Made by a program: the position numbers and the translations under genes
The notes under the pieces: generated by a model
The model's database searches: none
What the model was told of the DNA's origin: nothing
What the model saw: only the letters and a program-made list of their open reading frames with translations
NCBI GenBank assembly: GCA_020152595.1
Contig: JAIGNY010000589.1
Location: forward strand, 102,501 to 166,500
Direction: 5' to 3'
Origin: Chiridota heheva
Taxonomy: Eukaryota; Echinodermata; Holothuroidea; Apodida; Chiridotidae
DNA length: 64,000 nt
Shown: piece after piece, positions 22,249 through 50,957 of the stretch
Layout: each line of letters begins with the position of its first letter
Numbering within the stretch: the first letter of the stretch is position 1

Positions 22249-22333
22249 ATGCCTTATTCATTTTGGCTAAAGTGCTATGTGTATGCCATTGTTTTTGCTA
22301 AGTGTCTGTTAACAAAGAATTTAATACTGCCAG
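22249..22333 (+). CDS. First coding exon, copy 3, of the tandem-exon gene
   Basis: Encodes MPYSFWLKCYVYAIVFAKCL plus eight residues, a signal-peptide-like leader. It ends CCAG|GTAAGT in phase 1. It is the copy closest to exon 2 (intron of 1,350 bp), so it is the default first exon in the gene model. Joining its last G to exon 2 makes an Ala codon and keeps the frame open. Confidence 0.65.
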
Positions 22334-23683
22334 GTAAGTAAATCTCTTCAATGCATTTACAGTAATTGAAATTCAGTGTGGCTGTGGTAAAGGTGAACAT
22401 TTCACTCAATCGAGTGACTCAACTTCCTTTTTGTAAGACAAAAGGGCATTTTAGTATTGTTTAGTTTAGTAACCATTCATACCCCATGTTTTCCATTTTT
22501 TTTCAAAGATTAAAGTTCCAATTCTAAATATAATTTAGGCAGCAATATACATTATTTGGTATGTACATTTTTGTACAATCTATTTTATATTGACATACTG
22601 TATATCTGTAATTTGTTTTGTCAAACTTATCATTTCATGATAACTTTATATTATCATTTAGCATTGCACTATAATCACAAGAAAAACCACCTCCTTGGTA
22701 AGAAACAATAAGAGACACTTCGAGCACATGAAGGATATCCTAACCATGCTTAGAATATCATAACATTGCCTTTGTAAGGTCATCCTCACATCATCACATA
22801 AATTACAGAATAGGAACGTGCAGAAATTCAAAAGAATAATCTGCTAACAAGAAAGCAATCTATGGAGTTCCTGACCTTATCACCAATAAGCATAGTGGGG
22901 GGGGGGGGGAATAAATATGGAGGGAAATGGTTAAAAGGGGTCACTAGCTGCTCGACCTTTGAGCATATGACCCTACAGTTTATGGGACACAAGTTCATGT
23001 ATCATGTGGTACAAACATGATTGGCATAGGTCTTGCACTTTTGGAATTTAAATTGGCCCAAAAATTGAACAAGTTAGTACATAATTACCCCTAAAATCAC
23101 ATATTTGACCTCTGACCCTTGACCCTGATCACTGTAACAGCTTACTACACTTTCTATGACACCATTCATGCTCACGTCACACTTGTTATTCTATATCTAT
23201 AGGAGAAAATGGTGAAATTTTGAAAGTGGTTAATAGTTCTGTGACCTTTGACCTTTTAATTGGTATCATGCAGACCTCTAGCTTCATTTAAATTTGGAGC
23301 ATGGAGTCCAGGAGCCCTTTACAAGCAGGATAATTGCTTACTATGCTATCATTCTGTGTTCTGTATTCATTTATGGGGTTAATTAAGATTATTAAGTTAA
23401 AAACAAATCTATTTTTTTAAATTGTTTTCTCATGAGGGGCAGGGCGGACCCCAGGACGCAGGGCGGACCTCCAGGGGGTAAGGCGGACCCCATGGGCAGG
23501 GTGGGCCCATGGAGGGGTGGGGAAGGCCACTAGGGGTATGTCATGGTTTATGGTACAACATAGGGTTGGTATAGGTCTTGTATCTTTTGAGCTTAGAATG
23601 GTGCAAAATTGTGCATAAAAAAACACTTATTTGACCTTTGACCCATGACCTTTTGACCTGCAATTATTTCTAATTTTTGTTAG

Positions 23684-23908
23684 CATATGTTAACATTGTC
23701 CTGGCAAATTGCTCAGAAGGGGTAAACAGAGTAATAAAGCAGTCAAGTCTGAGCATGGCATACAACACTACACATCAGTACATGCTCCAAACTACATTTG
23801 AACCTGTGCTTTTGAACTCTACTGAAAATGTCACCTTTGGTGTGTATTTGAGTCCTGGAGCAACCTGCAGTAATGGTTCATTCATACAAACTTTTGTTGT
23901 AACACAAG
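23684..23908 (+). CDS. Exon 2: N-glycosylated ectodomain of the tandem-exon gene
   Basis: The acceptor TTTTTGTTAG precedes 225 bp ending CAAG|GTGAGT, phase 1 on both sides. It encodes 75 residues with two cysteines (VLANCSEG and GATCSNGS) that could form a disulphide and four N-glycosylation sequons (NTT, NST, NVT, NGS), a strong sign of an extracellular domain. I do not recognise the fold. A beta-sandwich domain is conceivable. Its first bases are shared with units 1 and 2, so the segmental duplication broke inside this exon. Confidence 0.7.
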
Positions 23909-25150
23909 GTGAGTTCAAGTTATTAGAGAGCAATTGATTGGCATGTTTTTTTTATAGGCTACTAATAAATTAGCTCCCTCAAAAGTTTCTTCATTACCTC
24001 AACCAACATAGTTGAATGGGGGTTGTGTTTTCACCTCCGTTTGTATGTCTGTTTGTCATCGACATATCTCAAGAACTGATGATTGGATTTTGATTAAATT
24101 TGCTGTATGGTTTTGTTATGGCTTAACTTTATGGAAAAAGTGAATTTTGGCACATAATGAAACAGGGAGGGAAAATGGAGGGTGGTTACATTTTAGGGTG
24201 AGATCTGTCAAGACAACTTTCCACTGGAATGTGCTAAACATTGAATTCACGCGATGAAGGAAATCCAAGCAATCAGATTTTTGGGCTGTAAGGAAATCAA
24301 ATCAAGTGGTACCGGTATCTGGTATCAATAAAATCATAACAATTGGTTTCTGCCATGAACTGAAAATGGTGGAATGGAATTTTGTGGACTTTAGAAAAAT
24401 AAAATCCAGTGGTCTCTGATATCAATAAATATCAATGCAATTGCTTTCTGCCGTGAAGGGAAAATGATAGAATGTGAAACTTGCCAAAAAAGAGCTCAAG
24501 TAATAGACGCTTAGCCTAAATAAAGCTGAAAACAATGATATTACCTTGGAAGAAATCAGTCGGATAATCTTGAAGTATTTAGAATGTAAATGATCATTAC
24601 AGATCAAAAGGTTTAAATATATTCTTTGGGGATAAAATTTAAAGACCTAGGATTTCTTAGTACTCCTGTAGCACCGTCGGACTGATGTCACCCGTGTTAG
24701 TATGGCTGCCGCTAGTGCTGGCTGGCCATCCTTGTACAGCAATACCAATGTCAACTGGACCAAGGGATGTGTATAATAACTAAAATTTCTGAGGTAGATT
24801 ACTGTATTTCGGGAATAGGGAATAAACTGGGGCAGAGATATCAGAGATATGAATCTAAAGAGTGCTGTAATTCTAGATATGGCATCCACACAGTGGGTGG
24901 ATCTTTGACCTGCAGAACAGTGGGATCTAGAATACAGGTACTTCGATTGCACATTGTGTTATGCATCAAAATATTGAACACAAGCTACGTTTGTACTATT
25001 TATTCCAATGTTTTGTTTTTTACGTTATTTAGAATCGACTCTTTTAATTTAATCCTTGTATGGTATGAAAATCTACAGTGTTATGCATAATGGCATGTAC
25101 ATGTTTTGATTAACATTTTTCGGGAAAATAGCTGGCACATGTATATATTT
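23909..25150. other. Intronic sequence with dispersed repeats
   Basis: Between exon 2 and the exon array. Contains a common marine-invertebrate dispersed repeat phrase near 24,010-24,130 (ATCTCAAGAACTGATGATTGG) and no convincing further exon. Confidence 0.5.
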
Positions 25151-25235
25151 AACCAACTGGTTAGCTCAATTGGTAGAGTACCTACTTTTCAGCTGAAAGG
25201 TCTTAGGTTCAATACCCAGTCAAGTCATACCAAAG
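25150..25235 (+). repeat. tRNA-derived SINE head
   Basis: An A-box-like TTAGCTCAATTGGTAGAG (25,161-25,178) and a B-box-like AGGTTCAATACCC (25,205-25,217) are spaced as in a tRNA gene. The acceptor stem does not pair, so it is a tRNA-derived SINE or pseudo-tRNA, not a working tRNA. Confidence 0.65.
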
Positions 25236-25414
25236 ACTTTCAAAATGGAACCTGCTGTCCTGTCGTTTGGTGCCCAGCATAAATAAGAGATCAGAATTCC
25301 AAAATGAAGTAATTTTTTGGTTCCGATGCTGATAGCATAAGGAATCTATGCAGTCATGCTGGCGTGTATATATGTGTGCATGTATGTATGAATGTATGCT
25401 TGCCTGTGACAGCA

Positions 25415-26400: not shown

Positions 26401-27829
26401 CCCATGCTTCGTATACAGTCCTATTGGTTTTGGTGGTATTGTCATGCATTTGCTTCTCTTGAAAAAGTTGTCAACAGATTTTATTTTATTGATGTAATCA
26501 TGTACATGGTGGGCATGGCTTATAAATGTGTATTATTAATCATATTTCGTAATATAATATGCAATGCCAGTTAGTATAAATCAACCAAAATGAAAGTATA
26601 CATCAGGACCACTAAGCGTTTTTGGTTTTCTGGTTACTCATTGTTGGGGTTGACCTCTTTCTTTTTATTAGTTTTCAAAAGGGTTTGAAATTAGGGGGAA
26701 ATTTTCGGAAAGAAATAATGATTTTTTTTGGAAAATGTACAAATTCTTCAAAATAATTTTAAGTCAGTGTTTCCACTGACTTAAAAAAATTAGTTCAGTG
26801 AAAAGAAAAAAAAAGAGAAATTCAACTTTATAAAAAAGGACTTGGAAAGTAAAATATTTTGAAGAAAGCATTCTAAAACAATATATCTCTGAGGAGATTA
26901 TTCAGTTAAAGATTGGGTATCATTTATATAGAAAAGGCTGTAATTACTAATCAGACTAGTTGTTTGGGTTTTCTGAGAGCCTGGATTTGAATTTTTAGGA
27001 GATTGAGAGCCCGGTTTGGAATTAAAAATCAAAAATTTGTGAGAGGTGGGGAAAGGGGGAGGGGGTCTGTAAGCCCATATCCAGATTTTGTTTGGGGGTG
27101 AGGGGAAGCAGGTACTGAGCAGGTACCGTAAAGGGTAATATGAAGGGGTTAAGCATGATCATGTTTCCTAATAAGGGCGGAAAAATTAAACAATGGTGAA
27201 GAACTGGATTATTTTATTCCATGAAGCAAATATTGAATTTCATGGCTTTCATGAATTGAAAAAATGATTTTAAGAATGACTTATTAAAAAGATATACCAT
27301 ATTTGACGTAATAAGCACCCTAGGCGCTTATAAAATATAATTATGTCACTTTTTAGTCCCAAAGTTTCTTTCTAATAAACACCCATGCTTGGGGCGGTGT
27401 ACAGTGTGATATTTTGTGTATACTGGTTTTATACTAGCCTCACAATAACCACCACAAAGACAATTGTGAGCATCAGACACAAAATAATGAAAGAATGTAA
27501 CAACAAGTTTTCCAAAGCTTTCTGCACCATTTTGTTTCTTTTAAAGTCTTCTTTCATATAAGATGAACATGCTTTACCCTGAACTAATCCTTGAATGCTT
27601 TCTTCACCATGCTGTTTCTTTTGCAGTCCTCTTTCATATAAGATGAGCATGCTTTACCCTGAACTAATCCTTGAATGCTTTCTTCACCATGCTGTTTCTT
27701 TTGCAGTCCTCTTTCATATACATGTAAGCTGTACATGCTTAACCACTAAAGTAATTCTTTAAATATCATGAAGGTAAAAATTGTCAACCTATTCATGGGC
27801 CTTTCTTTGTATCCTTTGTGCACACACAG

Positions 27830-27901
27830 ATGAAACCGAAACATCAACTATCTTGCAATTTCCTGATTCTACTTCTCTTTCCTGGACAACCAAAGCTCAA
27901 G
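27830..27901 (+). CDS. Repeat exon 1 of 17
   Basis: Acceptor CACACACAG, donor CAAG|GTGTGT, 72 bp, phase 1-1. Encodes 24 residues on the consensus ETETSTISQFPDSTPLSW followed by TTKAQ, with Ser9 to Leu and Pro16 to Ser. Ser/Thr-rich, no cysteine, likely an extracellular O-glycosylated stalk repeat. Confidence 0.75.
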
Positions 27902-28933
27902 GTGTGTCATATTTTAATCATTGTACGAAATGCTGAACATGTGTTTCCACTGACATTAAGAAATTAGTTCAGTAAAAAAAAAAAAAAAAATTCAACTTTA
28001 TGAAAAAGGACTGGAAAAGTAACAATATTGTGAAGAAAGCATTCTAAAATATGATATCTTTGAGGAGATTATTCAATTAAAGATTGGGTATCCCTTATAT
28101 AGAAAAGGCTGTAATTACTAATCAGACTAGTTGTTGGGTTTTCTGAGAGCCTGGATTTGAAATTTTGGGAGTTTGTGATCCCTTATTGAATTTTAAGACT
28201 ACAAACTTGTGAGAGGTGGGGAAAGGGTGGGGGGAGGTCTGTGAGCCCATATCCAGATTTTTTGGAAAGGGGAGAGGTTGGGGTTGGGGGGAAGCAGGTA
28301 CTGAGCAGGTAGCGTAAAGGGTAATGTAAAAGGGTTAAGCATGATCATGTTTCCTAATAAGAGCAGAAAACAAAAAAAATGGTGAAGAACTGGATTATTT
28401 TATTCCATGAAGCAAATATTAAATTTCATAGCTTTCATAAATTAAAAAAAAATGATTTTAAAAATGACTTATTAAAAAGATATACCATATTTTACGTAAT
28501 AAGCACCCTAGACGCTTATAAAATATAATTATGTTACTTTTTAGTCCCAAAGTTTCTTTCTAATAAGCACCTATGCTTGAGGCGGTGTAGAGTGTGCTAT
28601 ATTGTGTATACTGGTTTTATACTAGCCTCACAATAACCAACTACAAAAACAATTGTGAGCATCAGACACAAAATAAGGAAAGAATGTAACAAAAGAATCT
28701 CCAATGCTTTCTTCACCATTTTGTTTCTTTTGCAGTCCTCTTTCATATAAGATGAACATGCTTGACCACTGTACTAATCCTTGAATGCTTTCTTCACCAT
28801 GCTGTTTCTTTTGCAGTCCTCTTTCATATAAGCTGTACATGCTTAACCACTGAAGTAATTCTTTAAATATCATGAAGGTAAAAATTGTCTACCTATTCAT
28901 GGGCCTTTCTTTTTATCCTTTGTGCACACACAG

Positions 28934-29005
28934 ATGAAACCGAAACATCAACTATCTTGCAATTTCCTGATTCTACTTCTCTTTCCTGGACAACCAAAGC
29001 TCAAG
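28934..29005 (+). CDS. Repeat exon 2 of 17
   Basis: 72 bp, phase 1-1, same splice sites as exon 1 and an identical peptide (Leu9, Ser16). Confidence 0.75.
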
Positions 29006-30023
29006 GTGTGTCATATTTTAATCATTGTACGAAATGCTGAACATGTGTTTCCACTGACATTAAGAAATTAGTTCAGTAAAAATTTTTTAAAAATCCAACT
29101 TTATGAAAAAGGACTGGAAAAGTAACAATATTGTGAAGAAAGCATTCTAAAATATGATATCTTTGAGGAGATTATTCAATTAAAGATTGGGTATCCCTTA
29201 TATAGAAAAGGCTGTAATTACTAATCAGACTAGTTGTTGGGTTTTCTGAGAGCCTGGATTTGAAATTTTGGGAGTTTGTGATCCCTTATTGAATTTTAAG
29301 ACTACAAACTTGTGAGAGGTGGGGAAAGGGTGGGGGGAGGTCTGTGAGCCCATATCCAGATTTTTTGAAAAGGGGGAGGGGGAAGCAGGTATTGAGCAGG
29401 TAGCGTAAAGGGTAATATAAAAGGGTTAAGCATGATCATGTTTCCTAATAAGAGCAGAAAACCAAAAAAATGGTGAAGAACTGGATTATTTTATTCCATG
29501 AAGCAAATATTAAATTTCATAGCTTTCATGAAATAAAAAAAATGATTTTAAAAATGACTTATTAAAAAGATATACCATATTTTACGTAATAAGCACCCTA
29601 GACGCTTATAAAATATAATTATGTTACTTTTTAGTCCCAAAGTTTCTTTCTAATAAGCACCTATGCTTAAGGCGGTGTAGAGTGTGCTATATTGTGTATA
29701 CTGGTTTTATACTAGCCTCACAATAACCAACTACAAAAACAATTGTGAGCATCAGACACAAAATAAGGAAAGAATGTAACAAAAGAATCTCCAATGCTTT
29801 CTTCACCATTTTGTTTCTTTTGCAGTCCTCTTTCATATAAGATGAACATGCTTGACCACTGTACTAATCCTTGAATGCTTTCTTCACCATGCTGTTTCTT
29901 TTGCAGTCCTCTTTCATATAAGCTGTACATGCTTAACCACTGAAGTAATTCTTTAAATATCATGAAGGTAAAAATTGTCTACCTATTCATGGGCTTTTCT
30001 TTTTATCCTTTGTGCACACACAG

Positions 30024-30095
30024 ATGAAACCGAATCATCAAGTATCTCGCAGTTTCCTGATTCTACTCCTCTTTCCTGGACAACCAAAGCTCAAG
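30024..30095 (+). CDS. Repeat exon 3 of 17
   Basis: 72 bp, phase 1-1. Peptide differs from consensus by Thr5 to Ser and Thr7 to Ser, both conservative. Confidence 0.75.
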
Positions 30096-31358
30096 GTGTG
30101 TCATATTTTAAGTATTGTACAAAATGCTGAACATGTGTTTCCACTGACATAATGAAATTAGTTCAGTGAAATTACAAAAATGAAATTTCAACTTTATAAA
30201 AGAGGACTTCAAAATTAACAATATGGTGAAAAAAGCATTAAAAAATGTTATCTTTGAGGAGATATTTCAGTTAAAGATTGGGTATCCCTTATATAGAAAA
30301 AGCTGTAATTAAAAACTTAAAAAATGGTAAAGAACTGGATTATTTTATTTTATGAAGCAAATATTGAATTTCATAGATTTCATAAATTGAAAAAATGATT
30401 TTAAAAATGACTTATTAAAAAGATATACCATATTTTACGTAATAAGCACCCTAGACGCTTATAAAATATAATTATGTCACTTTTTAGTTCCAAAGTTTCT
30501 TTCTAAAAAGCACCCATGCTTGGGGCGGTGTAGAGTGTGCTATATTGTGTACACTGGTTTTATGCTAGCTTAACAATAACCACCACAAAAACAATTGTGA
30601 GCATCAGACACAAAAGAAGGAAAGAATGTAACAACAGATTCTCCAATTGTTTCTTCACCATTTTGTTTCTTTTGCAGCCCTCTTTCATATAAAATGAAAA
30701 TGCTTAACCACTGAACTAATCCTTGAATGCTTTCTTTACCGTTCTGTTTCTTTTGTAGTCCTCTTTCATATAAGATGAACATGCTTAACCACTGAACTAA
30801 TCCTTGAATGCTTTCTTTACCATTCTGTTTCTTTTGTAGTCCTCTTTCATATAAGATGAACATGTTTGACCACTGTACAAATCCTTGAATGCTTTCTTTA
30901 CCATTCCGTTTTTTTTTTGAAGTCCTCTTTCATATGAGTATAAAAATGACTTACTAAGAAAATATACCATATTTGACGTAATAAGCACCCTAGACGCTAA
31001 TAAAAATATTTATGTCACTTTTTAGTCCCAAAGTTTCTTTCTAATAAACACCCATGCTTGAGGCGGGGTAGAGTGTGCTATATTGTGTATACTGGTTTTA
31101 TACTAGCTTTACAATAATACATTCTCCAATGCTTTCTTTACCATTTTGTTTGTTTTGTAATCCTCTTTCTTATAAGATGACTATGCTTAACCACTGAAGT
31201 ACTCCTTAAATGCTTTCTTCACCATGCTGTTTCTTTTGCAGTCCTCTTTCATACAAGCTGTACATGCTTAACCACTAAGATAATCCTTTAAATATCATGA
31301 AGGCAAAAATTGTTTACCTGTCCATGGACCTTTCTTTTTATCCTTTGTGCACACACAG

Positions 31359-31430
31359 ATGAAATCGAAACATCAACTACCACGCAATTTCCTGATTCTA
31401 CTCCTCTTTCATGGACAACCAAAGCTCAAG
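31359..31430 (+). CDS. Repeat exon 4 of 17
   Basis: 72 bp, phase 1-1. Differences from consensus: Thr3 to Ile, Ile8 to Thr, Ser9 to Thr. Confidence 0.75.
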
Positions 31431-32465
31431 GTGTGTCATATTTTAAGTATTGTACAAAATCCTAAACATGTATTTTAACTGACATTAAGAATTTACTTCA
31501 GCAAAAAGAAGAAAAAGAAAAATTCAACTTTATGAAAGAGGATTTCAAAAGTAACAATACTGTGAAGAAAGCATTGAAAAATGTTATATCTTTGAGGAGA
31601 TGATTCAGTTAAAGATTGGGAATCATTTATATAGAATACGCTGTATTTACTAATCAGACTAATTGTTGGGTTTTCTGGAAGCCTAAACTTGAAATTTTAG
31701 GAGTATGCGAGCCCTCATTGAATTTAAAGACTACAAATTTGTGAGAGGTGGGGAAAGGGGGAATGGTGGGGTCTGTAAGCCCATATCCATATTTTTTTTT
31801 TGTGGCGTGGGGGTAAGCAGGTACTGAGCAGGTACCGTAAAGGGCAATATGGAGGGGTTAAGCATGATCATGTTTCCTGATAAGGGCAGAAAAATTAAAC
31901 AATGGTGAAGAACTGGATTATTTTATTCCATAAAGCAAGTATTGAATTTCATAGCTTTCATATATTGACAAAATATCTTTAAAAATGACTTATTAATAAG
32001 ATATACAATATTTGACGTAATTAGCACCCTGGGCGCTTATAAAATATAATTATGTCACTTTGTAGTCCCAAAGTGTTTTCCTAATAAGCACCCATGCTTG
32101 GCGCGGTGTACAGTGTGATATTTTGTGTATACTTCTTAAAACATGCCTTACAATGACCACCACAAAGACAATTGTAAGCATTAGACACGAGAAGAAATAC
32201 AAAAAGAAAAGAAAAAAAAAGAAAAAAAAAATTCAATGCTTTCTTCACTATTCTGTTGTTTTTGAAGTCCTCTTTCATATAAGATGAACATGTTTAACCA
32301 CTGAACTAATCCTTAAATGCTTTCTTCATCATGCTGTTTCTTTTGCAGTCCTGTTTTATAAACGATGAACATGCTTAACCACTAAACTAATCCTTTAGAT
32401 ATCATGAAGGTAAAAATTGTTTACCTGTCCATGGGCTTTTCTTTTCATCCTTTGTGCACACACAG

Positions 32466-32537
32466 ATGAAACTGAAACATCAACTATCTCGCAATTTCTT
32501 GCTTCTACTCCTCTTTCCCGGACTACCAAAGCTCAAG
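32466..32537 (+). CDS. Repeat exon 5 of 17
   Basis: 72 bp, phase 1-1, donor GTTTGT. Differences: Pro12 to Leu, Asp13 to Ala, Trp19 to Arg. Confidence 0.75.
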
Positions 32538-33537
32538 GTTTGTCATATTTTAAGTATTGTACAAAATGTTGAACGTGTGTTTCCACCGACATTAAGAAAT
32601 TAGCTCAGTATAAATCAAGAAAAAACCATCAATTTTATGAAAAAGGACTTTAAAAGTAACAATATGGTGAAAAAAGTATTCAAAAATGTGTTTTTTTGGA
32701 GGAGATACTTCAGATAAAGATTGCTTATCATTTATATAGAAAAGGCTGTAATTACTAATCAGACTACTTGTTGGGTTTTCTGAGAGCCTGGATTTGAATT
32801 TTTAGGAGTTTAAGAGCCCGAGCTGGATTGGAAAATTAAAAACTTGTGAGAGGTGGGGGTGGGGGGTCTGTAAGCCCATATCCAGATTTTTTTGAAAGTG
32901 GGGGGAAGCAGGTACTGAGCAGGCACCGTAAAGAATAATATGAAGTGGTTAAGCATGATTATGTTTTCTGATAAAGGCAGAAAACTTAAACATCGGTGAA
33001 GAACTGGATTTTTTTATTCCATGAAGCAAATATTGAATTTCATAGCTTTCATCAATTTAAAAAAAAGATTTTAAAAATGACTTACTAGAAAAATATACCA
33101 TGTTTGACGTAATAAGAACCTTAGGCGCTTATAAAATGTAATTATGTCACTTTATAGTTCCAAACTTTCTTTCTAATAAGCACCCATGCTTGGGGCGGTG
33201 TACATTGTGATATTTTGTGTATGCTGGTTTTATACTAGCCTCACCATAGCCACCATAAAAACAATTGTGAGCATCAGACACAAAATAAGGAAAGAATGTA
33301 ACAAAAGATTTTCCAATGCTTTCTTCACCATTTTGTTTCTTTTGAAATCTCTTTCACATAAGATAAAGATGCTAAACCACTGTACTAATCCTTGAATGCT
33401 TTCTTCACCATTTCGTTTCTTTTGAAGGCTTCTTTTATATAAGATGAACATGCTTAACCACTGAACTAACGGTTTAGATATCATGAAGGTAGAAATTGTC
33501 TACCTGTCCGTTCTTTTCATCTTTTGTGCACACACAG

Positions 33538-33609
33538 ATGAAACCGAAACATCAACTATCACGCATTTTCCTGATTCTACTCCTCTTTCCTGGACAACCA
33601 AAGCTCAAG
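33538..33609 (+). CDS. Repeat exon 6 of 17
   Basis: 72 bp, phase 1-1. Differences: Ser9 to Thr, Gln10 to His. Confidence 0.75.
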
Positions 33610-34702
33610 GTGTGTCATATCTTAAGTATTGTACAAAATGCTGAACATGTGTTTTCACTAACATTATGAAATTAGTGCAGTATAAATAAAAAAATAAAAA
33701 TTCAAGTTTATGAAAAAGGACTCTAAAATTAACAATATGGTGAAGAAAGCATTCGAAAATGTTATATCTTTGAGAAGATATTTCAGTTAATGATTGGGTA
33801 TCCCTTATATAGGAAAGGCTGTAATTACTAATCAGACTAGTTGTTGGGTTTTCTGGGAGCCTGGATTTGAATTTGTAGGGGTTCGAGAGCCCGGATTGGA
33901 TTTAAAAATTAAAAGTTTGTGGGATTTGGGGGGAGGTGGGAACTGTGAGCCCATATCCAGATTATTTTCGTGGGGTGGGAAGAAGCAGGTACTGAGCAGG
34001 TAGCGTAAAGGGTAATATAAAAGGGTTAAGCATGATCATGTTTCCTGATAAGGGCAGAAAACTTAAAAAATGGTGAAGAACTTGATTATTTTAATCCATG
34101 AAGCAAATATTAAATTTCATAGATTTCATAAATTGAAAAAATGATTTTAAAAATGACTTATTAAAAAGATATACCATATTTTACGTAATAAGCACCCTAG
34201 ACGCTTATAAAATATAGTTATGTCACTTTTTAGTCCCAAAGTTTCTTTCTAATAAGCACCCTTGCTTGGGGCGGTGTAGAGTGTGCTATATTGTGTATAC
34301 TGGTTTTATACTAGCTTAACAATAACCACCACAAAAACAATTGTGAGCATCAGACACAAAATAATGAAAGAATGTAACAACAGATTCTCCAATTGTTTCT
34401 TCACCATTTTGTTTCTTTTGAAATCCTCTTTCATATAAGATGAACATGCTTAACCACTGAACTAATCCTTGAATGCTTTTTTCACCATGCTGTTTCTTTT
34501 GCAGTCCTCTTACATATAAGATGAGCATGTTTAACCACTGAAGTAATCCTTAAATGCTTTATTCACCATGCTGTTTCTTTTGCAGTCCTCTTTCATATAA
34601 GATGTACATGCTTAACCACTGCACTAACCCTTTAAATATCATGAAGGTAAAAATTGTCTACCTATCCATGTGCCTTTCTTTTTATCCTTTGTGCACACAC
34701 AG

Positions 34703-34774
34703 ATGAAACCAAAACATCAACTATCTCGCAATTTCTTGATTCTACTCCTCTTTCCTGGACAATCAAAGCTCAAG
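34703..34774 (+). CDS. Repeat exon 7 of 17
   Basis: 72 bp, phase 1-1. Differences: Glu4 to Lys, Pro12 to Leu, Thr21 to Ile. Confidence 0.75.
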
Positions 34775-37358: not shown

Positions 37359-37430
37359 ATGAAACTGAAACATCAATTATCTCGCAATTTTCTGATTCTA
37401 CTTCTCTTTCCTGGACAACCAAAGCTCAAG
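37359..37430 (+). CDS. Repeat exon 9 of 17
   Basis: 72 bp, phase 1-1. Differences: Thr7 to Ile, Pro12 to Ser, Pro16 to Ser. Confidence 0.75.
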
Positions 37431-38525: not shown

Positions 38526-38597
38526 ATGAAACCGAAACATCAACTATCACGCAATTTCCTGATTCTACTCCTCTTTCCTGGACAACCAAAGCTCAAG
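38526..38597 (+). CDS. Repeat exon 10 of 17
   Basis: 72 bp, phase 1-1. One difference from consensus: Ser9 to Thr. Confidence 0.75.
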
Positions 38598-39619
38598 GTG
38601 TGTCATATTTTAATTATTGTACGAAATGCTGAACATGTGTTTCCACTAACATTAAGAAATTAGTTTAGTGAAAAGAAAAAAGAAAAAAAAATAAACTTTA
38701 TGAAAAAGGACTTGAAAAGTCACAATATTGTGAAGAAAGCATTCTAAAATATGATATCTTTGAGGAGTTTATTCAATTAAAGATTAGGTATCCCTTATAT
38801 AGAAAAGGCTGTAATTACTAATCAGACTAGTTGTTGGGTTTTCTGAGAGCCTGGATTTGAAATTTTAGGAGTTTGCGATCCCTTATTGAAAATAAAGACT
38901 ACAAATTTGTGAGAAGTGGGGAAAGGGTGGGGGGATCTGTGAGCCCATATCCAGATTTGTTTGGAAGGGGGGGGGAGGGGGAAGCAGGTACTGAGCAGGT
39001 ACCGTAAAGGGTAATATAAAAGGCTTAAGCATGGTCATGTTTCCTAATAAGGGCAGAAAACCTAAAAAATGGTGAAGAACTGGATTATTTTATTCCATGA
39101 AGCAAATATTAAAATTCATAGCTTTCATAAATTGAAAAAATGATTTTAAAAATGACTAATTAAAAAAAAATACCATATTTGACGTAATAAGCACCCTAGA
39201 CGCTTATGAAATATAATTATGTCACTTTTTAGTCCCAAAGTTTCTTTCTAATAAGCACCCATGCTTGGGGCGGTGTAGAGTGTGATATTTTGTGTACACT
39301 GGTTTTATGCTAGCCTCACAATAACCACCACAAAAACAATTGTAATTACAGACACAAAATAAGGAAAGAATGTAACAAAAGATTTTCCAATTGTTTCTTC
39401 ACCATTTTGTTTCTTTTGCAGTCCTCTTTCATATAAGATGAAGATGCTTAACCACTGAACTAATCCTTTAATGCTTTCTTCATCATGCTGTTTCTTTTGC
39501 AGTCCTCTTTTATAAACGATGAACATGCTTAACCACTGAACTAATCCTTTAGATATCATGAAGGTAAAAATTGAATACCTGTCCATGGGCTTTTCTTTTC
39601 ATCCGTTGTGCACACACAG

Positions 39620-39691
39620 ATGAAACTGAAACATTAACTATCTTGCAATTTCCTGCTTCTACTCCTCTTTCCTGGACAACCAAAGCTCAAG
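39620..39691 (+). CDS. Repeat exon 11 of 17
   Basis: 72 bp, phase 1-1, donor GTTTGT. Differences: Ser6 to Leu, Ser9 to Leu, Asp13 to Ala. Its flanks resemble those of exon 5. Confidence 0.75.
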
Positions 39692-40615
39692 GTTTGTCAT
39701 ATTTTAAGTATTTTACAAAATGGTGAACGTGTGTTTCCACCGACATTAAGAAATTAGCTCAGTATAAATCAAGAAAAAACATTCAATTTTATGAAAAAGG
39801 ACTTTAAAAGTAACAATATGGTGAAAAAAGCATTCAAAAATGTTTTTTCTTCTGAGGAGATACTTCAGATAAAGATTGCTTATCATTTATATAGAAAAGG
39901 CTGTAATTACTAATCAGACTAGTTGTTGAGTTTTTTGAGAGCCTGGATTTGAATTTTTAGGAGTTTGAGAGCCTGGGCTGGATTGGAAAATTAAAAACTT
40001 GTGAGAGGTGGGGGTGGGGGTTCTGTAAGCCCATATCCAGTTTTTTTTTTTAAAGTGGGGGAAAGCAGGTACTGAGCAAGTCCCGTAAAGTATAATATGA
40101 AGTGGTTAAGCATGATCATGTTTCCTGATAAAGGCAGAAAACTTAAACATCGGTGAAGAACTGGATTTTTTTTATTCCATGAAGCAAATATTGAATTTCA
40201 TAGCTTTCATGAATTTTAAAAAATGATTTTAAAAATGACTTATTAAAAAGATATACCATGTTTGACGTAATAAGAACCTTAGGCGCTTATAAAATATAAT
40301 TATGTCACTTTATAGTCCCAAAGTTTCTTTCTAATAAACACCCATGCTTGGAGCGGTGTACAGTGTGATATTTTGTGTATACTGGTTTTATACTAGCCTC
40401 ACCATAGCCACCACAAAAACAATTGTGAGAATCAGACACAAAATAGGGAAAGAATGTAACAACAGATTTTCCAATGCTTTCTTCACCATTCCGTTTCTTT
40501 TGAAGTCCTCTTTTATATAAGATGAACATGCTTAACCACTGAACTAACGCTTTAAATATCATGAAAGTAAAAATTGTCTACCTGTTCATTCTTTTTATCC
40601 CTTGTGCACACACAG

Positions 40616-40687
40616 ATGAAACCGAAACATCAACTATCACGCAATTTCCTGATTCTACTCCTCTTTCCTGGACAACCAAAGCTCAAG
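40616..40687 (+). CDS. Repeat exon 12 of 17
   Basis: 72 bp, phase 1-1. Same peptide as exon 10 (Ser9 to Thr). Confidence 0.75.
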
Positions 40688-41859
40688 GTGTGTTTTATTT
40701 TAGGTATTGTACAAAATGCCAACCATGTGTTTCCACTGACATTAAGAAATTAGTTCTGTGAAAAGAAGAAAAAAGAAAAAATCAACTTTATGAAAAAGGA
40801 CTTCAAAAGTAACAATATTGTGAAGAAAGCCCTCAAAAATGTTTTGTCTTTAAGGAGATTATTCAGTTAAAGATTGGTTATCATTTATATAGAAAAGGCT
40901 GTAATTACTAATCGAACTAGTTGTTGGGTTTTCTGAGAGCCTGGATTTGAATTTTTAGAGCTTTGAGAGCCCGCTTTGGATTTGAAAATTAGAAATTTGT
41001 GAGAGGTGGAGGAGGGTGGGGGTCTGTGAGCCCATATTCAGATTTTTCTTTGGGGTGGTGGTGGGGGAAGCAGGTACTGAGCAGGCACCGTAAAGGGCAA
41101 TATGAAGGGGTTAAGCATGATCATGTTTCCTGATAAGGGCAGAAAAATTAAACAATGGTGAAGAACTGAATTATTTTATTCCAAAAGGCAAGTATTGAAT
41201 TTCATAGCTTTCATATATTGAAAAAATAACTTTAAAAATGACTTATTTAAAAAATATACAATATTTGACGTAATAAGCACCCTAGGCGCTTATAAAATAT
41301 AATTATGTCACTTTATAGTCCCAAAGTTTCTTTCTAGTAAGCACCCATGCTTGGCGCGGTGTGCAGTGTGATATTTTGTGTATACTTGTTAAAACAAGCC
41401 TTACAATAGCCACCACAAAGACAATTGTAAGCATCAGACACAAAATAAGGAAAGAATGTAACAAAAGATTTTTCAATGCTTTCTTCACCATTTTGTTTCT
41501 TTTGAAATCTCTTTCACATAAGATAAAGATGCTAAACCACTGAACTAATCCTTGAATGCTTTCTTCACCATTCCGTTTCTTTTGAAGGCCTCTTTTATAT
41601 AAGATGAACATGCTTAATCAGTGAAGTAATCCTTGAATGCTTTTTTTACCATTCTGTTTCTTTTGTAGTCCTCTTTCGTATAAGATGAACATGCTTAGCC
41701 ACTCTACTAATCCTTGAATGCTTTCTTCACCATTTCGTTTCTTTTGAAGGCTTCTTTTATATAAGATGAACATGCTTAACCACTGAACTAACGGTTTAGA
41801 TATCATGAAGGTAGAAATTGTCTACCTGTCCGTTCTTTTCATCTTTTGTGCACACACAG

Positions 41860-41931
41860 ATGAAACCGAAACATCAACTATCTCGCAATTTCCTGATTCT
41901 ACTCCTCTTTCCTGGACAACCAAAGCTCAAG
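41860..41931 (+). CDS. Repeat exon 13 of 17
   Basis: 72 bp, phase 1-1. Matches the consensus peptide exactly. Confidence 0.75.
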
Positions 41932-43108
41932 GTGTGTCATATTTTAAGTAATGTACAAAATGCTGAACATGTGTTTCCACTGACCTTAAGAAATTAGTTC
42001 AGTAAAAATAAAAAAATATAAAAAATATTCAACTTTATGAAAGAGGATTTCAAAAGTAACAATATTGTGAAAAAAACATTCTAAAATAATATATCTTTGA
42101 GGAGATATTTCATATAAAGATTGGGTATCATTTATATAGAAAAGGCTGTAATTACTAATCAGACTAATTGTTAAGTTTTCTGGGAGCCTTGATATGAATT
42201 TTTAGGGGTTTGAGAGCCCGAATTAGACTTAAAAATTAAAAGTTTGTGAGAGTTGAGGGGTGGTGGGGTCTGTAAGCCCATATCCATATTTTTTTGTGGG
42301 GTGGGGGGAAGCAGGTACTGGGCAGGTACCGTAAAGGGTAGTATGAAGGGGTTAAGCATGATCATGTTTCCTGATAAGGGCAGAAAAATTAAACAATGGT
42401 GAAGAACTGGATTAATTTATTCCAAAAAGCAATTATTGAATTTCATAGCTTTCATATATTGACAAAATATCTTTAAAAAATGACTTATTAAAAAGATATA
42501 CAATATTTGACGTAATAAGCACCCTGGACGCGTATAAAATATAAGTATGTCACTTTATAGTCCCAAAGTTTCTTTCTAATAAGCATCCATGCTTGGCGCG
42601 GTGTACAGTGTAATATTTTGTGTATACTTGTTAAAACAAGCCTCATAATAGCCACCACAAAGACAATTGTAAGCATTAGACACAAAATAAGGAAAGAATG
42701 TAACAAAAGATTTTCCAATGCTTTCTTCACCATTTTGTTTCTTTTGAAATCTCTTTCATATAAGATGAAGATGCTTTACCACTGAACTAATCCTTGAACG
42801 CTTTCCTCACCATTCCGTTTCTTTTGAAGGCCTCTTTCATATAAGATGAACATGCTTAATCAGTGAAGTAATCCTTGAATGCTTTCTTCACCATTCCGTT
42901 TCTTTTGAAGGCCTCTTTCATATAAGATAAACATGCTTAACCACTCTACTAATCCTTGAATGCTTTCTTCACCATTCCGTTTCTTTTTAAGGCCTCTTTT
43001 ATATAAGATGAACATGATTAACCACTGAACTAATGCTTTAAATAACATACAGGTAAAAAATGTCTACCTGCCCATGGGTTTTTCTTTTCATCCTTTGTGC
43101 ACACACAG

Positions 43109-43180
43109 ATGAAACTGAAACATCAACTATCTCGCAATTTCCTGATTCTACTCCTCTTTCCTGGACAACCAAAGCTCAAG
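43109..43180 (+). CDS. Repeat exon 14 of 17
   Basis: 72 bp, phase 1-1. Matches the consensus peptide exactly. Confidence 0.75.
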
Positions 43181-44278
43181 GTGTGTCATATTTTAAGTAT
43201 TGTACAAAATGCTGAACATGTGTTTCCACTGACATTAAGAAATTAGTAAAAATCATAAAATAAAAAAAAAACATTATGAAAGAGGACTTCCAAAGTAACA
43301 ATATGGTGAAAAAAGCATTCAAAAATGTTATATCTTTGAGGAGATAATTTAGTAAAAGAGTGGGTATCATTTAAATAGAAAAGGCTGTAATTACTAATCA
43401 GACTAGTTGTTGGGTTTTCTGAGAAGCTGGATTTAAATTTCTAGGCGTTTGAGAGCCCGGATTAGATTTAAAAAGTAATAATCAGTAGGGGGTGAGGGTG
43501 GGAAGGGGGTCTGTGAGCCCATATCCAGATTTTTTTGGCGGATTGGGGGGAAGCAGGTACTGAGCAGGTACAGTAAAGGGTAATATGAAGGGGTTAAGCG
43601 TGATCATGTTTCCTGATAAGGGCAGAAAACTTAAACAATGGTAAGGAACTGAATTATTTTATTCCATGAAGCAAATATTGATTTTCATAGCTTTTATCAA
43701 TTGAAAAGAATACTTTAAAAATGATTTAGTAAAAAGATATACCAAAATTGACGTAATAAGGGCCAGGACGCTTTTAAATATACTTATGTCACTTTTTAGT
43801 CCCATTTTTTTTCTTCTAATAAGCACCCATGCCTGGGGCGGTGTAGAATGTGCTGTATTGTGTATACTGGTTTTATACTAGCCTCACAATAACCACCACA
43901 AAAGCAATTGTGAGCATCAGACACAAAATAAGGAAAGAATGTAACAAAAGATTTTCTAATGCTTTCTTCACCACTTTGTTTCTTTTAAATCTCTTTCACA
44001 TAAGATGAAGATCTTAACCACTGAACTAATCCTTGAATGCTTTCTTCACCATTTTGTTTCTTTTGAAGTCCTTTTTTCAAATAAGATGAACTTGCTTAAG
44101 ATTTACATGCTCAACTGAACACATCCTTGAATGCTCTCTTCACTATTTTATTACTTTTAAAGTTCCCTTCATATAAGATGAGCATGCTTTACCACTGCAC
44201 TAACCCTTTAAATATCATTGAGGTAAAAATTGTCTACTTGTCCATGGGCCTTTCTTTTCATCCTTTGTGCACACACAG

Positions 44279-44350
44279 ATGAAACTGAAACATCAACTAT
44301 CTCGCAATTTCCTGATTCTACTCCTCTTTCCTGGACAACCAAAGCTCAAG
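44279..44350 (+). CDS. Repeat exon 15 of 17
   Basis: 72 bp, phase 1-1. Matches the consensus peptide exactly. Confidence 0.75.
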
Positions 44351-45271
44351 GTGTGTCATATTTTAAGTATTGTACAAAATGCTGAACTTGTGTTTCCACA
44401 ATGATATTAAGAAATTAGTTTAGAGCAAATCAAAAACAAATTTCAACTTTATAAAAGAGGACTTAAAAAGTAACAATATGGTAAAGAAAGCTTTCAAAAA
44501 TGCTATAACTTTGAGGAGATATTTAAGTTTGGGTATCATTTATATAGAAAAGGCTGTAATTACTAATTAGACTAGTTGTTGGGTTTTCTGAGAGCCTGGA
44601 TTTAAATTTTTAGGTGTTTGAGAGCCCAAAATAGATTTTGAAAATAATAATTTGTGGAAGGTGGGGGGTCTGTAATCCCATATCCACTTTTTTTTAGGGG
44701 GTTGGGGTGGGGGGAAGCAGGTACTGAGCAGGTACAGTAAAGGGTAATATGGAGGGGTTAAGCATGATCATGTTTTCTGATAAGGGCAGAAAAATTAAAC
44801 AATGGTAAAGAACTGGAATATTTTATTCCATGAAGCAAATAATGATTTTCATAGCTTTCATAAATTGAAAAGAATACTTTAAAAATGATTTAGTATAAAG
44901 ATATACCATAATTGACGTAATAGGCGCCCGGGCGCTTATAAAATATAGTTATGTCTCTTTTTAGTCCCAAAGTTTCTTTCTAATAAGCACCCATGCTTGG
45001 GGCAGTGTAGAATGTGCTATATTGTGTATACTGGTTTTATACTAGCCTTACAATAACCACCACAAAAGCAATTGTGAGCATCAGACACAAAATAAGGAAA
45101 GAATGTAACAAACAAAATTCCAATGCTTTCTTCACCATTTTGTATCTTTTGAAGTCCTCTTTCATATAAGATAAACATGCTTAACCACTGAACTAACGCT
45201 TTAAATATCGTGAAGGTAATATTTTTTTACTTGTCCATGGGCCTTTCTTTTTATCGTTTTTGCACACATAG

Positions 45272-45343
45272 AGGAAACCGAAACATCAACTATCACGCAA
45301 TTTCCTGATTCTACTCTTTCTTCCCGGACTACCAAAGCTCAAG
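45272..45343 (+). CDS. Repeat exon 16 of 17
   Basis: 72 bp, phase 1-1. Acceptor changed to CACACATAG, still a valid AG. Differences: Asp1 to Glu (split codon G+AG), Ser9 to Thr, Pro16 to Leu, Leu17 to Ser, Trp19 to Arg. Confidence 0.7.
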
Positions 45344-46505
45344 GTTTGTCATACTTTAAGTATTGTACAAAATGCTAAACTTGTGTTTCCACACTGACAT
45401 TAAGAATTAGTTCAGAGAAAATCAAAAACAAAAATTAACTTTATTAAAGAGGACTTCAAAAGTAACAATTTGGTAAAAAAATCATACAAAAATGTTATAT
45501 CTTTAAGGAGATGATTCAGTTAAAGATTGGCTATCATTTATATAGAAAAGGCTGTAATTATTAATCAGACTAGTTGTTGCGTTTTCTGAGAGCCGGGATT
45601 TGAATTTTTAGGAGTTTGACAGCCTGGGTTAGATTTAAAAAGTAATAGTTTGTAGAAATTTAGGAAGGAAAAGGGTTTGTGAGCCCATATCCAGATTTTT
45701 TTTTTTTTTTTTGGAGGGGGCTGGGGAAGCAGGTACTGAGCAGGTACAGTAAAGGGTAATATGAAGGGGTTAAGCATGACCATATTTTCTGATAAGGGCA
45801 GAAAAATTAAAGAATGATGAAAAACTGGATAATTTTATTCCGTGAAGCAAATATTGAATTTCATAGCTTCATAAATTGAAAAAATAACTTTAAAAATGAC
45901 TTATCAAAAAGATATACCATAATTGACGTAATAAGCACCCTGGCCGCTTATAAAATATAGTTATGTCACTTTTTTAGTAAGCACCCTTGGGGCGGTGTAG
46001 AGTAAAGTATACTGGTTTTTCTAATAAGCACTAACCACCACAAAAACAATTGTGAGCATCAGACACAAATTAAGGAAAGAATGTAACAAAAGATTCTCCA
46101 ATGCTTTCTTCACCGTTTTGTTTCTTTTGAAGTCCTCTTTTATATAAGATGAACATGCTTAACCACTAAACTAATCCTTGAATGCTTTTTTCACCATTTT
46201 GTTTCTTTTGAAGTCTTTTTTTCAAATAAGATTAAGATGCATAAGATCAACATGCTTAACTGAACTAATCCTTGAATGATTTCTTCACTATTTTGTTACT
46301 TTTAAAGTCCCCTTTCATATAAGATGAACATGCTTTACCACTGCACTGATCCTTGCGTGCTTTCTTCACCATTATGTTTATTTTGAAGTCCTCTTTTATA
46401 TAAGATGAACATTCTTAACCACTGAACTAACCCTTTAAATATCATGAAGGTAAAAATTGTCTACCTGTTCATGGGCCTTTCTTTTCATCTGTTTTGCACA
46501 CACAG

Positions 46506-46577
46506 GTAAAACAGAAAGATCAACTATCACGCAAGTTCTTGATTCTACTCCTCCTTCCCGGACAACCAAGTCTCAAG
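46506..46577 (+). CDS. Repeat exon 17 of 17, most divergent
   Basis: 72 bp, phase 1-1, donor GTTTGT. Nine-residue divergence from consensus including Asp1 to Gly, Glu2 to Lys, Thr5 to Arg, Phe11 to Val, Leu17 to Pro and Trp19 to Arg, but no stop and no length change. The DIRS-like element starts about 40 bp after its donor. Confidence 0.7.
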
Positions 46578-46612
46578 GTTTGTCATATTCTAAGTATTGT
46601 ACAAAATGCTAA

Positions 46613-47110
46613 ACATTTGCTCGACGCGACAGTCCACCAACCCTTCCGAGTCTCCACAAAGGTAGTCATGGAGATGCTCGAGAATGTTCTCCTTGTCCTT
46701 GGACTCTCTAAAGCCACTCTAACGGACCTTCGGCACTTACCAACAGAAGGCCCGGACTTCTTTGCATGTCACTTCCGAGATGTCCTATCGCGCCACGCTG
46801 TCCGACAGGACGATCTTCGGAAGACTTAAGAAGCTGCTTGCGAGAACGAAGCGTTTATTTTCTCCTCTCGCAGGTCGCTATCCTCCTGCCCTTGTACGGG
46901 GCTGTGGTACGCCTGCCCAGCGAACGGCCAATTATTGCCGTAACGCAGTAACGAGGCCCAATACAACTTCTTCCTCTTGCCAGGGGTCCATTTTGTGGAC
47001 GGCAGAGTGAATGTGGCAGAGAGCGGTCAACGCTCCTTCCCCTCTGCATGCAGAGTGGGTGCCTCTTCCTCCTGAGGGTGTGGAAGGGCAAGGGGCAGCG
47101 ATTCTTACCC
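46613..47110 (+). pseudogene. DIRS gag-like C-terminal fragment
   Basis: Open from about 46,617 to 46,829 (FRVSTKVVMEMLENVLLVLG then RHLPTEGPDFFACHF), followed by shifted frames. Resembles the coding region upstream of RT in animal DIRS elements. No catalytic motif expected. Confidence 0.5.
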
Positions 47111-47159: not shown

Positions 47160-48023
47160 GTTTGGGAAAATTTTAGAGGTGTGGGAGAGAGTCACTACAA
47201 ACCAATGGGTGCTACGAACCATTCGACAAGGTTACCGTCTAAAGTTCATGACCCCCTCGCCCCAAGGGGGGTCTTTCGCTCCACCCCCACGCCTCGTTTG
47301 AGCAACTACGCAGAGTTGTTGAGGACAGAGATCGGAGAGCTGTCGGCGAAGAACGCCATCACCCCCATCCCGAATCCTTTTTATGAATCTCGTCATGTCC
47401 ACGTTTTTCCTGGCCCACAAGAAGGGGAACAAGTGGCGCTCAATCATCAATCTGAGACCACTCAACAGGTTCATTCGGCCATTGAAGTTCAAGATAGAGA
47501 CTCTACACTCCATCCTCCCTCAGTTGACGAGGGGCCTGTGGGCCACCTCTGTCGACCTCGCGGAAGCATTTTTTCATGTGCCGATGCTCGAGGAACACAG
47601 GCGTTTTCTGTCGTTTAAGTTCGAGGGACTTATGTACACATTCAGGGTGTTACTCTCCGGGCTTTCGACTGCTCCAGGGTCTTCACACAGATTATGAGAG
47701 TTCTAGCAGCCTTCCTGCGAAAGCAAGGCATCAAAATGTGTATGTACCTAGACGACTGGCTGATCGTCGCAGTAGACCTAGCCACCGTCGCGGAACGTAC
47801 GAACATAGTAATAAGAGTGGTTTGGGACTTAGGGTGGGTGATCAACCTTGCCAAGTCCAATTTAGTTCCTTCTCAGATTCCCACCTTTCTGGGAGCAGTC
47901 CTGGAGTTTACACAAGGTCGTATACGACCGACGGGGGAGCGGATCCTAGCCATTAGGGCGGGAGCGGACGTCCTTCTCTCACAACCGGCGTCACCGGCGA
48001 GAGCTTGGCTGGTATTCCTATGA
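47160..48023 (+). pseudogene. DIRS reverse transcriptase, frameshifted
   Basis: Blocks in successive frames: a leading segment ending near 47,380; 47,383-47,697 with KGNKWRSIINLRPLN and the motif A region VDLAEAFFHVPM; 47,694-48,023 with the catalytic motif YLDDW. The catalytic aspartates are retained although the frame changes at about 47,385 and 47,680. Confidence 0.85.
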
Positions 48024-49517: not shown

Positions 49518-49550
49518 AGTAGGATAAAACTAGTGCGAGTATTAGGACCA

Positions 49551-50265
49551 GCCTTTAGAAAATTGTGCTGCGACCTGAACTCCCTTCCTTCCTACCATCG
49601 GTTGCAATCTGAATGCAAATTTATAATAACTAATCCTTTAAGCACCAATCATTCTTTCTCGCTAACAAAGAGGCAAACAAACAAAGGTAAAATCATGATC
49701 TGTGCTAAAGCAGACATAAGTATGTCTTTTGATTAATTTTATATGATAGAAATAATACTTATAAGCTATCTGAAGAAAATTCACATCATACCAAACAATA
49801 TAGCATAATTTTTCTAATATATTAAAATAGTAATTCTGTCAATATAAGCTTACATGGCCATTTTGTTCATACGCCCTCTAAAAAATGATTTTATACACCC
49901 AGTACAGATTAGGATATTAATGTATTTTGTTGCTTCAAGCCCTTCAAATTTCATTTCAAAGCATTTTGGAAAAGTATTCAAAGACAATTTTAAATAGATA
50001 CATTATGTGTGCTAGTATATAGGGAAAATAATGACATTGGCATGGTATGATTTCAACACAAAACTGCAGCAACATGACAAAATGGCAGCATCCATGAACT
50101 ACATTACAGCTTCAAACTTGGATAACTTGAGAAGGGATTAAGATTGTATGATGGGGTTTTTGTCAGTTGGCTTACTTTTTAATCCTCTATCACATAGCAA
50201 GTTAGAATACTTGACTGTATGTCTCCTCTAAACTTTGTTGGTGGAGGAAGCAACCCAAACTATTG
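49551..50265. other. Intronic sequence, no gene seen
   Basis: AT-rich sequence between the DIRS relic and the 15-bp satellite, with no recognisable repeat or exon. Confidence 0.5.
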
Positions 50266-50267
50266 CA

Positions 50268-50705
50268 AAGCGCACATTAGCAAGCGCACATTAGCAAGTG
50301 CACACAAGCAAAGCGCACACTAGCAAAGCGCACACTAGCTAAACGCACACTAGCAAAGCGCACACTAACAAAGCGCAAACTAGCAAAGCGCACACTAGCA
50401 AAACTAACACTAGCAAAGCACACACTAGCAAAGCGCACACTAGCAAAGCGCACACTAGCAAAGCGCACACTAGCAAAGCGCACACTAGAAAAGCGCACAC
50501 TAGCAAAGCGCACACTAGCAAAGCGTAAACTAGAAAAACGCACACTAGCAATGTGCATGCTAGCAAAGAGCACACTAGCAAAGCACACATTAGCAAAGCG
50601 CACTCTAGAAAAGCCCACACTAGCAAAACGCACATTAGCAAAGCACACACTAGCAAAGCGCACACAAGGAAAACGCACATTAGCAAAGCGCACATTAGCA
50701 AAGGA
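50268..50705. repeat. 15-bp satellite
   Basis: About 29 units of agcgcacactagcaa with point variants. The unit is a multiple of three, giving spurious ORFs on both strands. It lies about 120 bp before the acceptor of the terminal exon. Confidence 0.95.
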
Positions 50706-50823
50706 TTGAATGATGTTGGAGTGAGAGATTACTGCCTAGCTAAATGAGTGAACTTATGTGAAAGTAAACAACAAGTACACTTCACAAATGTTAAGATTCC
50801 CATTTTCCTCGTATTTTTTGTAG

Positions 50824-50957
50824 GGTCAAAAGAATTAGTAACCAACCAATATGAGAAGGAAAGTGCTGTGGAAGGGATGTCTGATGGTGCTGTCCAAAGG
50901 ATGTCTGTTGCCCTAGTCCGGATATCCATTGCTGCTGTTTTCCTACTGCATGTGTGA
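50824..50957 (+). CDS. Terminal coding exon with hydrophobic (GPI-anchor-like) C-terminus
   Basis: A strong pyrimidine tract and acceptor (TCGTATTTTTTGTAG) precede 134 bp open in phase 1, the phase left by every repeat exon. It encodes 43 residues plus TGA. A polar segment (KELVTNQYEKESAVEGMSDG) is followed by a hydrophobic end (MSVALVRISIAAVFLLHV) that stops abruptly, as in GPI-attachment signals, with SDGA as a plausible cleavage site. The alternative is a tail-less membrane span. Membership in the same gene rests on strand, phase and composition. Confidence 0.6.

Follow-up and report, generated by a model that had tools for sequence, protein, structure and literature searches.

What does a run of 17 exons, each of exactly 72 nucleotides (nt) and all in one frame, encode, and how did it arise? 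The question is raised by a 64,000-nt stretch of the genome of the holothuroid Chiridota heheva (GenBank assembly GCA_020152595.1, contig JAIGNY010000589.1, here C584, positions 102,501 to 166,500), hereafter called the window, whose gene and transposon content by themselves suggest an animal source; a search of the assembly for COX1 gave no match. A preliminary description had proposed a single gene here for a secreted or glycosylphosphatidylinositol (GPI)-anchored protein. Our analysis indicates that this gene probably belongs to a two-copy orphan animal gene family, in which the window copy amplified its stalk exon from one to 17 and codes for a putative stalked glycoprotein.

When rebuilt by script on the plus strand, the proposed exon model was reproduced: 1,668 nt form one open frame of 555 amino acids without an internal stop, composed of exon 1 (85 nt), exon 2 (225 nt), 17 stalk exons of 72 nt and a last exon of 134 nt including the stop codon (Table 1). 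Every junction was phase 1, and the stalk exons were bordered by AG at the 5' side and GT at the 3' side in 17 of 17 cases. No stop was found across them in the phase-1 frame, against 36 in phase 2 and one in phase 0. As approximately 5% of random changes create a stop, only about 1.6 stops were predicted for the 32 distinct changes, and the absence of stops in the array is therefore weak evidence when taken alone. Splice-site scores, which rest on consensus frequencies, placed the acceptor of the last exon and the donors of both exon 1 and exon 2 in the top 0.1–0.3%. A search for phase 1-1 exon candidates of 150–400 nt with both splice scores of at least 3 returned none and provides no control, since exon 2 itself scores too low and the 72-nt exons are too short to qualify. 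On balance, the predicted gene is probably real.

The N-terminal segment encoded by exon 1 was hydrophobic with a short core, which makes it a candidate signal peptide by hydropathy, in line with the signal-like character noted initially; the existence of this exon in three copies had gone unmentioned. At the other end, the hydrophobic C-terminus described for the final exon corresponded, also by hydropathy, to a 16-residue tail without a cytoplasmic portion, with one Arg in the window copy and a Trp in the sister gene presented below. Exon 2 contained five sequons (NCS, NTT, NST, NVT and NGS) and not four, as counted earlier. The predicted stalk consists of Ser/Thr-rich tandem repeats (S+T 41%, P 7% and S+T+P 48% of 408 residues), with less proline than is usual in a mucin domain. 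The likely product is a glycoprotein that would be secreted or GPI-anchored, and we infer its transcription, localization and glycosylation alike.

Further support for the gene came from a second locus. Searches of the window's own 1.1-Gb assembly, in which only the best candidates were scored, identified a sister gene on the same contig, upstream of the window and on the opposite strand. Its exon order was the same, namely exon 2, one single stalk exon and the last exon, with a retroelement at the matching position of the last intron, and this collinearity indicates that these exons belong to one gene. The earlier proposal of a single gene with a symmetric, amplified Ser/Thr-rich stalk array is thereby supported. 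At the amino acid level, the two copies were 86% identical in the common part of exon 2 and 93% in the last exon; homology to window positions 23694-26644 was 85.8% (BLAST), and the last homologous block ended at window position 51898. Genome-wide, exon 2 gave two convincing copies among the five matches listed (E 0.12 to 5.3 for the other three), the last exon two copies (2 of 2 matches), and a 144-nt stalk-exon query 17 scored matches, namely 16 of the window's 17 exons plus that of the sister. The sister's stalk exon is 71 nt long and frameshifted, and its skipping would preserve the frame; hence, the contrast of 1 versus 17 holds for copy number, and the sister might produce either a form without a stalk or no protein. 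The retroelement (roughly 46620-49640), with RVT_1 matches in broken frames, is presumably DIRS-like from its appearance and, being collinear in both sisters, was inserted before their duplication. Separately, positions 26362-26527 of intron 2 showed 2 changes in 150 aligned columns between the sisters, versus approximately 8% intron-wide, and were considered as a possible extra exon.

Divergence between the two loci was lower in exon 2 plus the last exon than in non-coding DNA. Substitutions amounted to 10/215 in exon 2 (plus one 3-nt indel) and 6/134 in the last exon, in comparison to 220/2659 in intron 2, 85/804 in the 3' flank, 63/572 in part of the last intron and 10/119 in the flank before the last exon (p=0.003 for both exons versus these non-coding parts). 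Non-synonymous sites of the two exons diverged less than non-coding DNA (10/262 vs. 378/4154, p=0.002); for synonymous sites, the values were 6/87 and p=0.57. The alignment was divided manually into 10 non-synonymous and 6 synonymous changes, with approximate numbers of sites. Excluded from the test were the stalk exon (8/71, one indel), the last-intron retroelement and the 119 columns upstream of the stalk exon (46 differences), which are not truly alignable, the sister being without that part of the unit.

The comparison with the sister also changed the view of exon 2. At a break point at window position 23693/23694, the acceptor and the 10 exonic bases before the break derive from the 3.1-kb 5' units, while the corresponding sister sequence is intron; the window exon is therefore what is left of a 369-nt exon after truncation, and its acceptor was recruited with the frame intact. 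The sister's 369-nt exon has a better acceptor, the same GTGAGT donor and 49 extra N-terminal residues with three cysteines, which were found only in the sister within the 296.5 kb read (part of it N). The 5' units themselves, in which exon 1 is preceded by a block of good conservation, are present in triplicate, and all three genome-wide matches to exon 1 lay inside the window. In the two upstream units, an acceptor-like TTCTTAG (17555-17610 and 20615-20690) is followed by a short open tail that soon reaches a stop, so that those copies of exon 1 would need splicing to the downstream exon 2.

Such a truncation could also point to decay of the gene in the window, in which case the acceptor of exon 2 would have been destroyed by the 5' deletion and the array would be a young satellite that is still exon-like. 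The window copy has indeed lost the first 151 nt of the exon together with a strong acceptor, and the one in place is mediocre (top 7% of 3,687 AGs), yet the new start of exon 2 is still in phase with exon 1, for which the chance was one in three. The array speaks on both sides as well. Its two most 3' stalk copies have diverged, the sister's stalk exon is frameshifted with 8/71 differences, the ratio of non-synonymous to synonymous change (N/S) within the array is neutral, and low change reaches past the stalk exon. Nevertheless, the 17 stalk exons hold neither stops nor indels, and they change less than their flanks in an array that is unique to the window copy, which indicates that constraint acted after the duplication. 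Taken together, we consider decay of the window copy unlikely.

The counts behind this last argument were made on a tree built from the flanks. The first 15 stalk exons showed 29 changes in 72 columns, with 103 in 140 columns of the upstream and 385 in 356 of the downstream flank; with all 17 stalk exons, the values were 48 in 72 columns, 121 and 419, respectively. For 15 copies, the 29 changes compare with 71 expected from both flanks (Poisson p 1.5e-8) and with 53 when only the upstream flank is used (p 2e-4), and for 17 copies, the 48 changes compare with 78 (p 1.5e-4) and 62 (p 0.04). Gap columns were absent from the stalk exon, while 7 and 32 occurred in the 72 columns on either side. This profile fits a constraint on splicing, yet it bears no sharp exon signature. 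Among stalk copies, pN/pS was 1.37 (17 copies) and 1.28 (15 copies), and differences from the consensus fell on the three codon positions 21, 21 and 13 times. The recognition role initially contemplated for the protein is thus without support from selection, as the differences between copies look neutral and not clearly diversifying.

Several results weigh against a functional stalked-glycoprotein gene. Within the array, 38 of 497 sliding windows changed less than the exon window for 15 copies and 58 for 17 copies, which places it 39th and 59th; the lowest-change window began 29–30 nt inside the stalk exon and extended past its donor, and purifying selection on stalk residues was not seen (N/S 1.28–1.37). 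Between stalk exon 17 and its counterpart in the sister, 8/71 sites differed and a 1-nt indel was present, a divergence not below that of non-coding DNA, and exon 2 alone did not separate clearly from intron 2 (p=0.066). As to splicing, low-scoring GTTTGT donors were present in 5 of the 17 stalk exons, and the acceptor of exon 2 is both weak and new. Exon 1 was not found near the sister or elsewhere in the genome among the best candidates scored; its membership in the gene consequently rests on phase, splice sites and position. Finally, the signal peptide and the GPI signal were assessed by hydropathy alone, and structure models of exon 2 were uninformative (mean pLDDT 41 alone and 34 with the sister).

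With regard to the origin of the array, stalk exons showed 87–100% identity with stalk exon 6, for the final two over alignments of 70 and 69 of 72 nt. Larger blocks recur within the array: 26767-29875 matched 37470-40555 (89.9% identical), and 30312-31291 matched 35217-36194 (94.9%). This pattern suggests growth by multi-unit duplication and, together with the sister's single exon versus 17, bears out the notion that the symmetric exons are duplicable. In the scenario that we favor, an ancestral gene would have had an exon that supplied cysteines and N-glycosylation sites, a single symmetric 72-nt exon for 24 Ser/Thr-rich residues and a last exon whose product ends in a hydrophobic segment. 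An inverted duplication would have produced the two sisters, although the order of events is our reconstruction. In the window copy, unequal crossing-over of approximately 1.1-kb units would have taken the stalk exon from one to 17, the upstream region and first exon would have been tripled and the 5' part of exon 2 lost. The resulting product would be a secreted or GPI-anchored glycoprotein with a small head on a 408-residue O-glycosylated stalk.

The introns of the array raise the further issue of whether stalk length is fixed. In all 16 array introns, bases 61-190 were predicted to pair with the 81-bp subrepeats located toward the 3' end, at a mean of -63.3 kcal/mol; 30 mononucleotide shuffles of the 5' arm per intron gave means of -26 to -41 kcal/mol and z-scores of -2.7 to -11.0. 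Predicted pairing was equally good between different introns (-63.4 kcal/mol) and across an exon (-63.3 kcal/mol). Competing complementary intron elements, a feature of mutually exclusive exon clusters, are accordingly found in 16/16 introns. In published work, duplicated complementary intron elements are proposed to give competing structures (PMC6071210), and complementary introns are possibly behind the exon repetition of SmPoMuc, the polymorphic mucins of Schistosoma mansoni (PMC2576457). Given the phase 1-1 exons and the long complementary arms in each intron, stalk length can probably vary through the number of copies and, with less certainty, through the skipping or repetition of exons.

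Taken to its full extent, the array might be a length-switching device, in which any intron pairs with any other and loops out or repeats runs of stalk exons, while three equivalent copies of the first exon feed the array; graded stalk lengths would result, some perhaps of more than 17 exons, as reported for SmPoMuc. We regard this as quite unlikely. Within the 296.5 kb examined, dispersed repeats that match both arms lie at other places and in either orientation, which makes the origin of the arms mundane and without a sign of selection. The same gene model with constitutive splicing to a fixed long stalk, the arms being remnants of a dispersed inverted-repeat element, comes close to an even chance. 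The occurrence of the arms elsewhere agrees with it, as does pairing within an intron that is no better than pairing across introns and thus shows no sign of pair-specific selection, whereas some skipping is plausible for 17 symmetric exons whose donors are uneven. A fixed stalk shares its gene model with the stalked-glycoprotein reading that we prefer, and the probabilities of the two are not mutually exclusive.

A comparison of exon 2 with protein and structure databases, as the preliminary description had suggested, was carried out and found no relative. The query of exon 1, exon 2 and stalk from the window had no Pfam match. No protein relatives were present in 5.8 billion clustered sequences (best 8,000 candidates by common words for one query and all 39 for the second), a collection that may hold few animal proteins. 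In the PDB, the window's exon 2 had no match and the sister's had three, at E 0.8 or worse. Among the titles listed in searches of open-licence papers, none dealt with this locus. The three remaining genomic matches to exon 2 were treated as chance: C3338 (E 0.12) contained two stops, C3634 (E 0.81), which we take to resemble a membrane-receptor N-terminus, contained one, and C1484 (E 5.3) was a match of 56 residues.

These searches also hinted at a different identity, namely that exon 2 derives from part of APC4 (anaphase-promoting complex subunit 4), in which case the gene would not code for a surface protein. The sister's exon 2 had a weak Pfam match to WD40_APC4_C-half (E=0.0068, 17 bits) and, over overlapping residues, a PDB match to 5bpt_A (E=0.82), a chain that we take to be APC4. 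The 17 bits fall short of the model's cut-off of 27.6 bits. Moreover, C1435, a locus of the same genome just over that cut-off (28 bits), was no closer to exon 2: its matching exon aligned over 14 columns only, with 43% identity, and the genome-wide search with exon 2, which listed matches up to E=10, did not include it. On the basis of this comparison, we rejected an origin from APC4, which appears very improbable.

Table 1. Positions of the predicted exons and associated features in the window
Feature	Position	Strand	Basis or remark
Exon 1, first copy	16063..16147	+	Sequence comparison; Pro2Ser; within 3.1-kb tandem unit
Exon 1, second copy	19127..19211	+	Sequence comparison; identical to 22249-22333
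Putative promoter	21846..21985	+	Among best-conserved stretches of the three 5' units; 85/85 columns invariant at 21861-21945
Exon 1, third copy	22249..22333	+	28 codons + 1 nt; candidate signal peptide (hydropathy); good donor (top 0.1% of 3,218 GTs)
Exon 2	23684..23908	+	23684-23693 common with 5' units; 23694-23908 (215 nt) matches 3' 218 nt of sister's 369-nt exon 2
Array of 17 tandem units	26767..46619	+	0.99-1.64 kb exon to exon; one 72-nt exon near 3' end of each
Stalk exon 1	27830..27901	+	
Stalk exon 2	28934..29005	+	Identical to stalk exon 1
Stalk exon 3	30024..30095	+	
Stalk exon 4	31359..31430	+	
Example array intron	31431..32465	+	5' part complementary to 81-bp subrepeats in 3' part; same in 16/16 array introns
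Stalk exon 5	32466..32537	+	GTTTGT donor
Stalk exon 6	33538..33609	+	
Stalk exon 7	34703..34774	+	
Stalk exon 8	36343..36414	+	GTTTGT donor
Stalk exon 9	37359..37430	+	
Stalk exon 10	38526..38597	+	
Stalk exon 11	39620..39691	+	GTTTGT donor
Stalk exon 12	40616..40687	+	
Stalk exon 13	41860..41931	+	
Stalk exon 14	43109..43180	+	
Stalk exon 15	44279..44350	+	
Stalk exon 16	45272..45343	+	Diverged; GTTTGT donor
Stalk exon 17	46506..46577	+	Diverged; GTTTGT donor; STPPSRTTKSQ in common with sister's single stalk exon
Reverse-transcriptase pieces of retroelement	47383..48023	+	Last intron; collinear in sister
Last exon	50824..50957	+	Splice sites, frame, sister match; stop; hydrophobic C-terminus without cytoplasmic tail

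Other elements were also observed in the window. Inverted repeats of 1.6 kb, 91.5% identical (1-1639 and 11349-12989), lie between the two sister genes and enclose an interval with open reading frames (ORFs) that, to our eye, recall Polinton/Maverick genes; the two ORFs tried from this interval had no Pfam match. LINE-like pieces, including a zf-RVT match, occupy 55860-57794, where a presumably endonuclease-like ORF had no match in Pfam. Minisatellites of 37, 15, 60 and 18 bp were located at 53267-55713, 50265-50703, 52357-52844, 3857-4295 and 10655-11352, some of which have one strand or both open over long stretches, and a nearly pure TA array of 255 bp was present at 7059-7313.

Among known systems, we regard SmPoMuc as the closest working analogue by gene plan, with the features tested found here in part; the present gene is not a member. 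SmPoMuc carries a small in-frame exon in tandem repeats of approximately 1 kb, as do the 17 units here, and its signal peptide is followed by a repeat domain, where our gene has a candidate signal peptide only. Its description reports up to about 20 repeats per gene with relatives that have one, a repeated exon flanked by complementary intron sequences, and genomic sequences without database similarity at the time of study (PMC2576457). The differences are an exon of 27 bp for a 9-residue repeat versus 72 nt and 24 residues in 17/17 cases here, unit introns that are more than 93% identical versus much more diverged, complementary stretches of 12–13 nt versus predicted ones of about 90–130 nt with mismatches, and a 15-exon gene with an intronic hammerhead ribozyme, whereas the window had no Rfam match at the gathering threshold. 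The likeness is one of gene plan; our protein searches gave no relatives of any kind. The STP exons of CD46 are likewise small and in frame and code for O-glycosylated Ser/Thr/Pro stalk segments of a surface protein; CD46 differs in having few, divergent exons, in its known alternative splicing and in being a transmembrane complement regulator. Mutually exclusive docker-selector arrays such as that of Dscam share tandem exon duplication and complementary intron elements with competing pairings (PMC6071210). In contrast to those arrays, both arms occur here in every array intron and the symmetric exons are joinable in any number, so that a mutually exclusive choice is not required.

The closest evolutionary analogue, in our comparison, is piccolo b of teleosts, for which the many-fold amplification of an exon in just one member of a paralogue pair is described and unequal crossing-over is proposed for its growth (PMC3484663). 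There, a zinc-finger exon of a synaptic protein is present in 8–16 copies with diverse repeat lengths (PMC3484663), and the paralogues are whole-genome duplicates, in contrast to the inverted local pair found here. The author knew of no other extensive domain amplification restricted to one of two ohnologues in teleosts and considered the case very rare among characterized zebrafish genes (PMC3484663). The adjacent 1-versus-17 pair of one symmetric exon in a single genome provides a natural experiment on the growth of exon arrays, and the dispersed-repeat arms in every unit allow a direct test of whether repeat-derived complementarity leads to exon skipping, repetition or circularization. Compared with these systems, the gene plan belongs to a type already described, whereas the family, the pair of sisters with 1 versus 17 copies and the long arms of repeat origin that each array intron carries are new.

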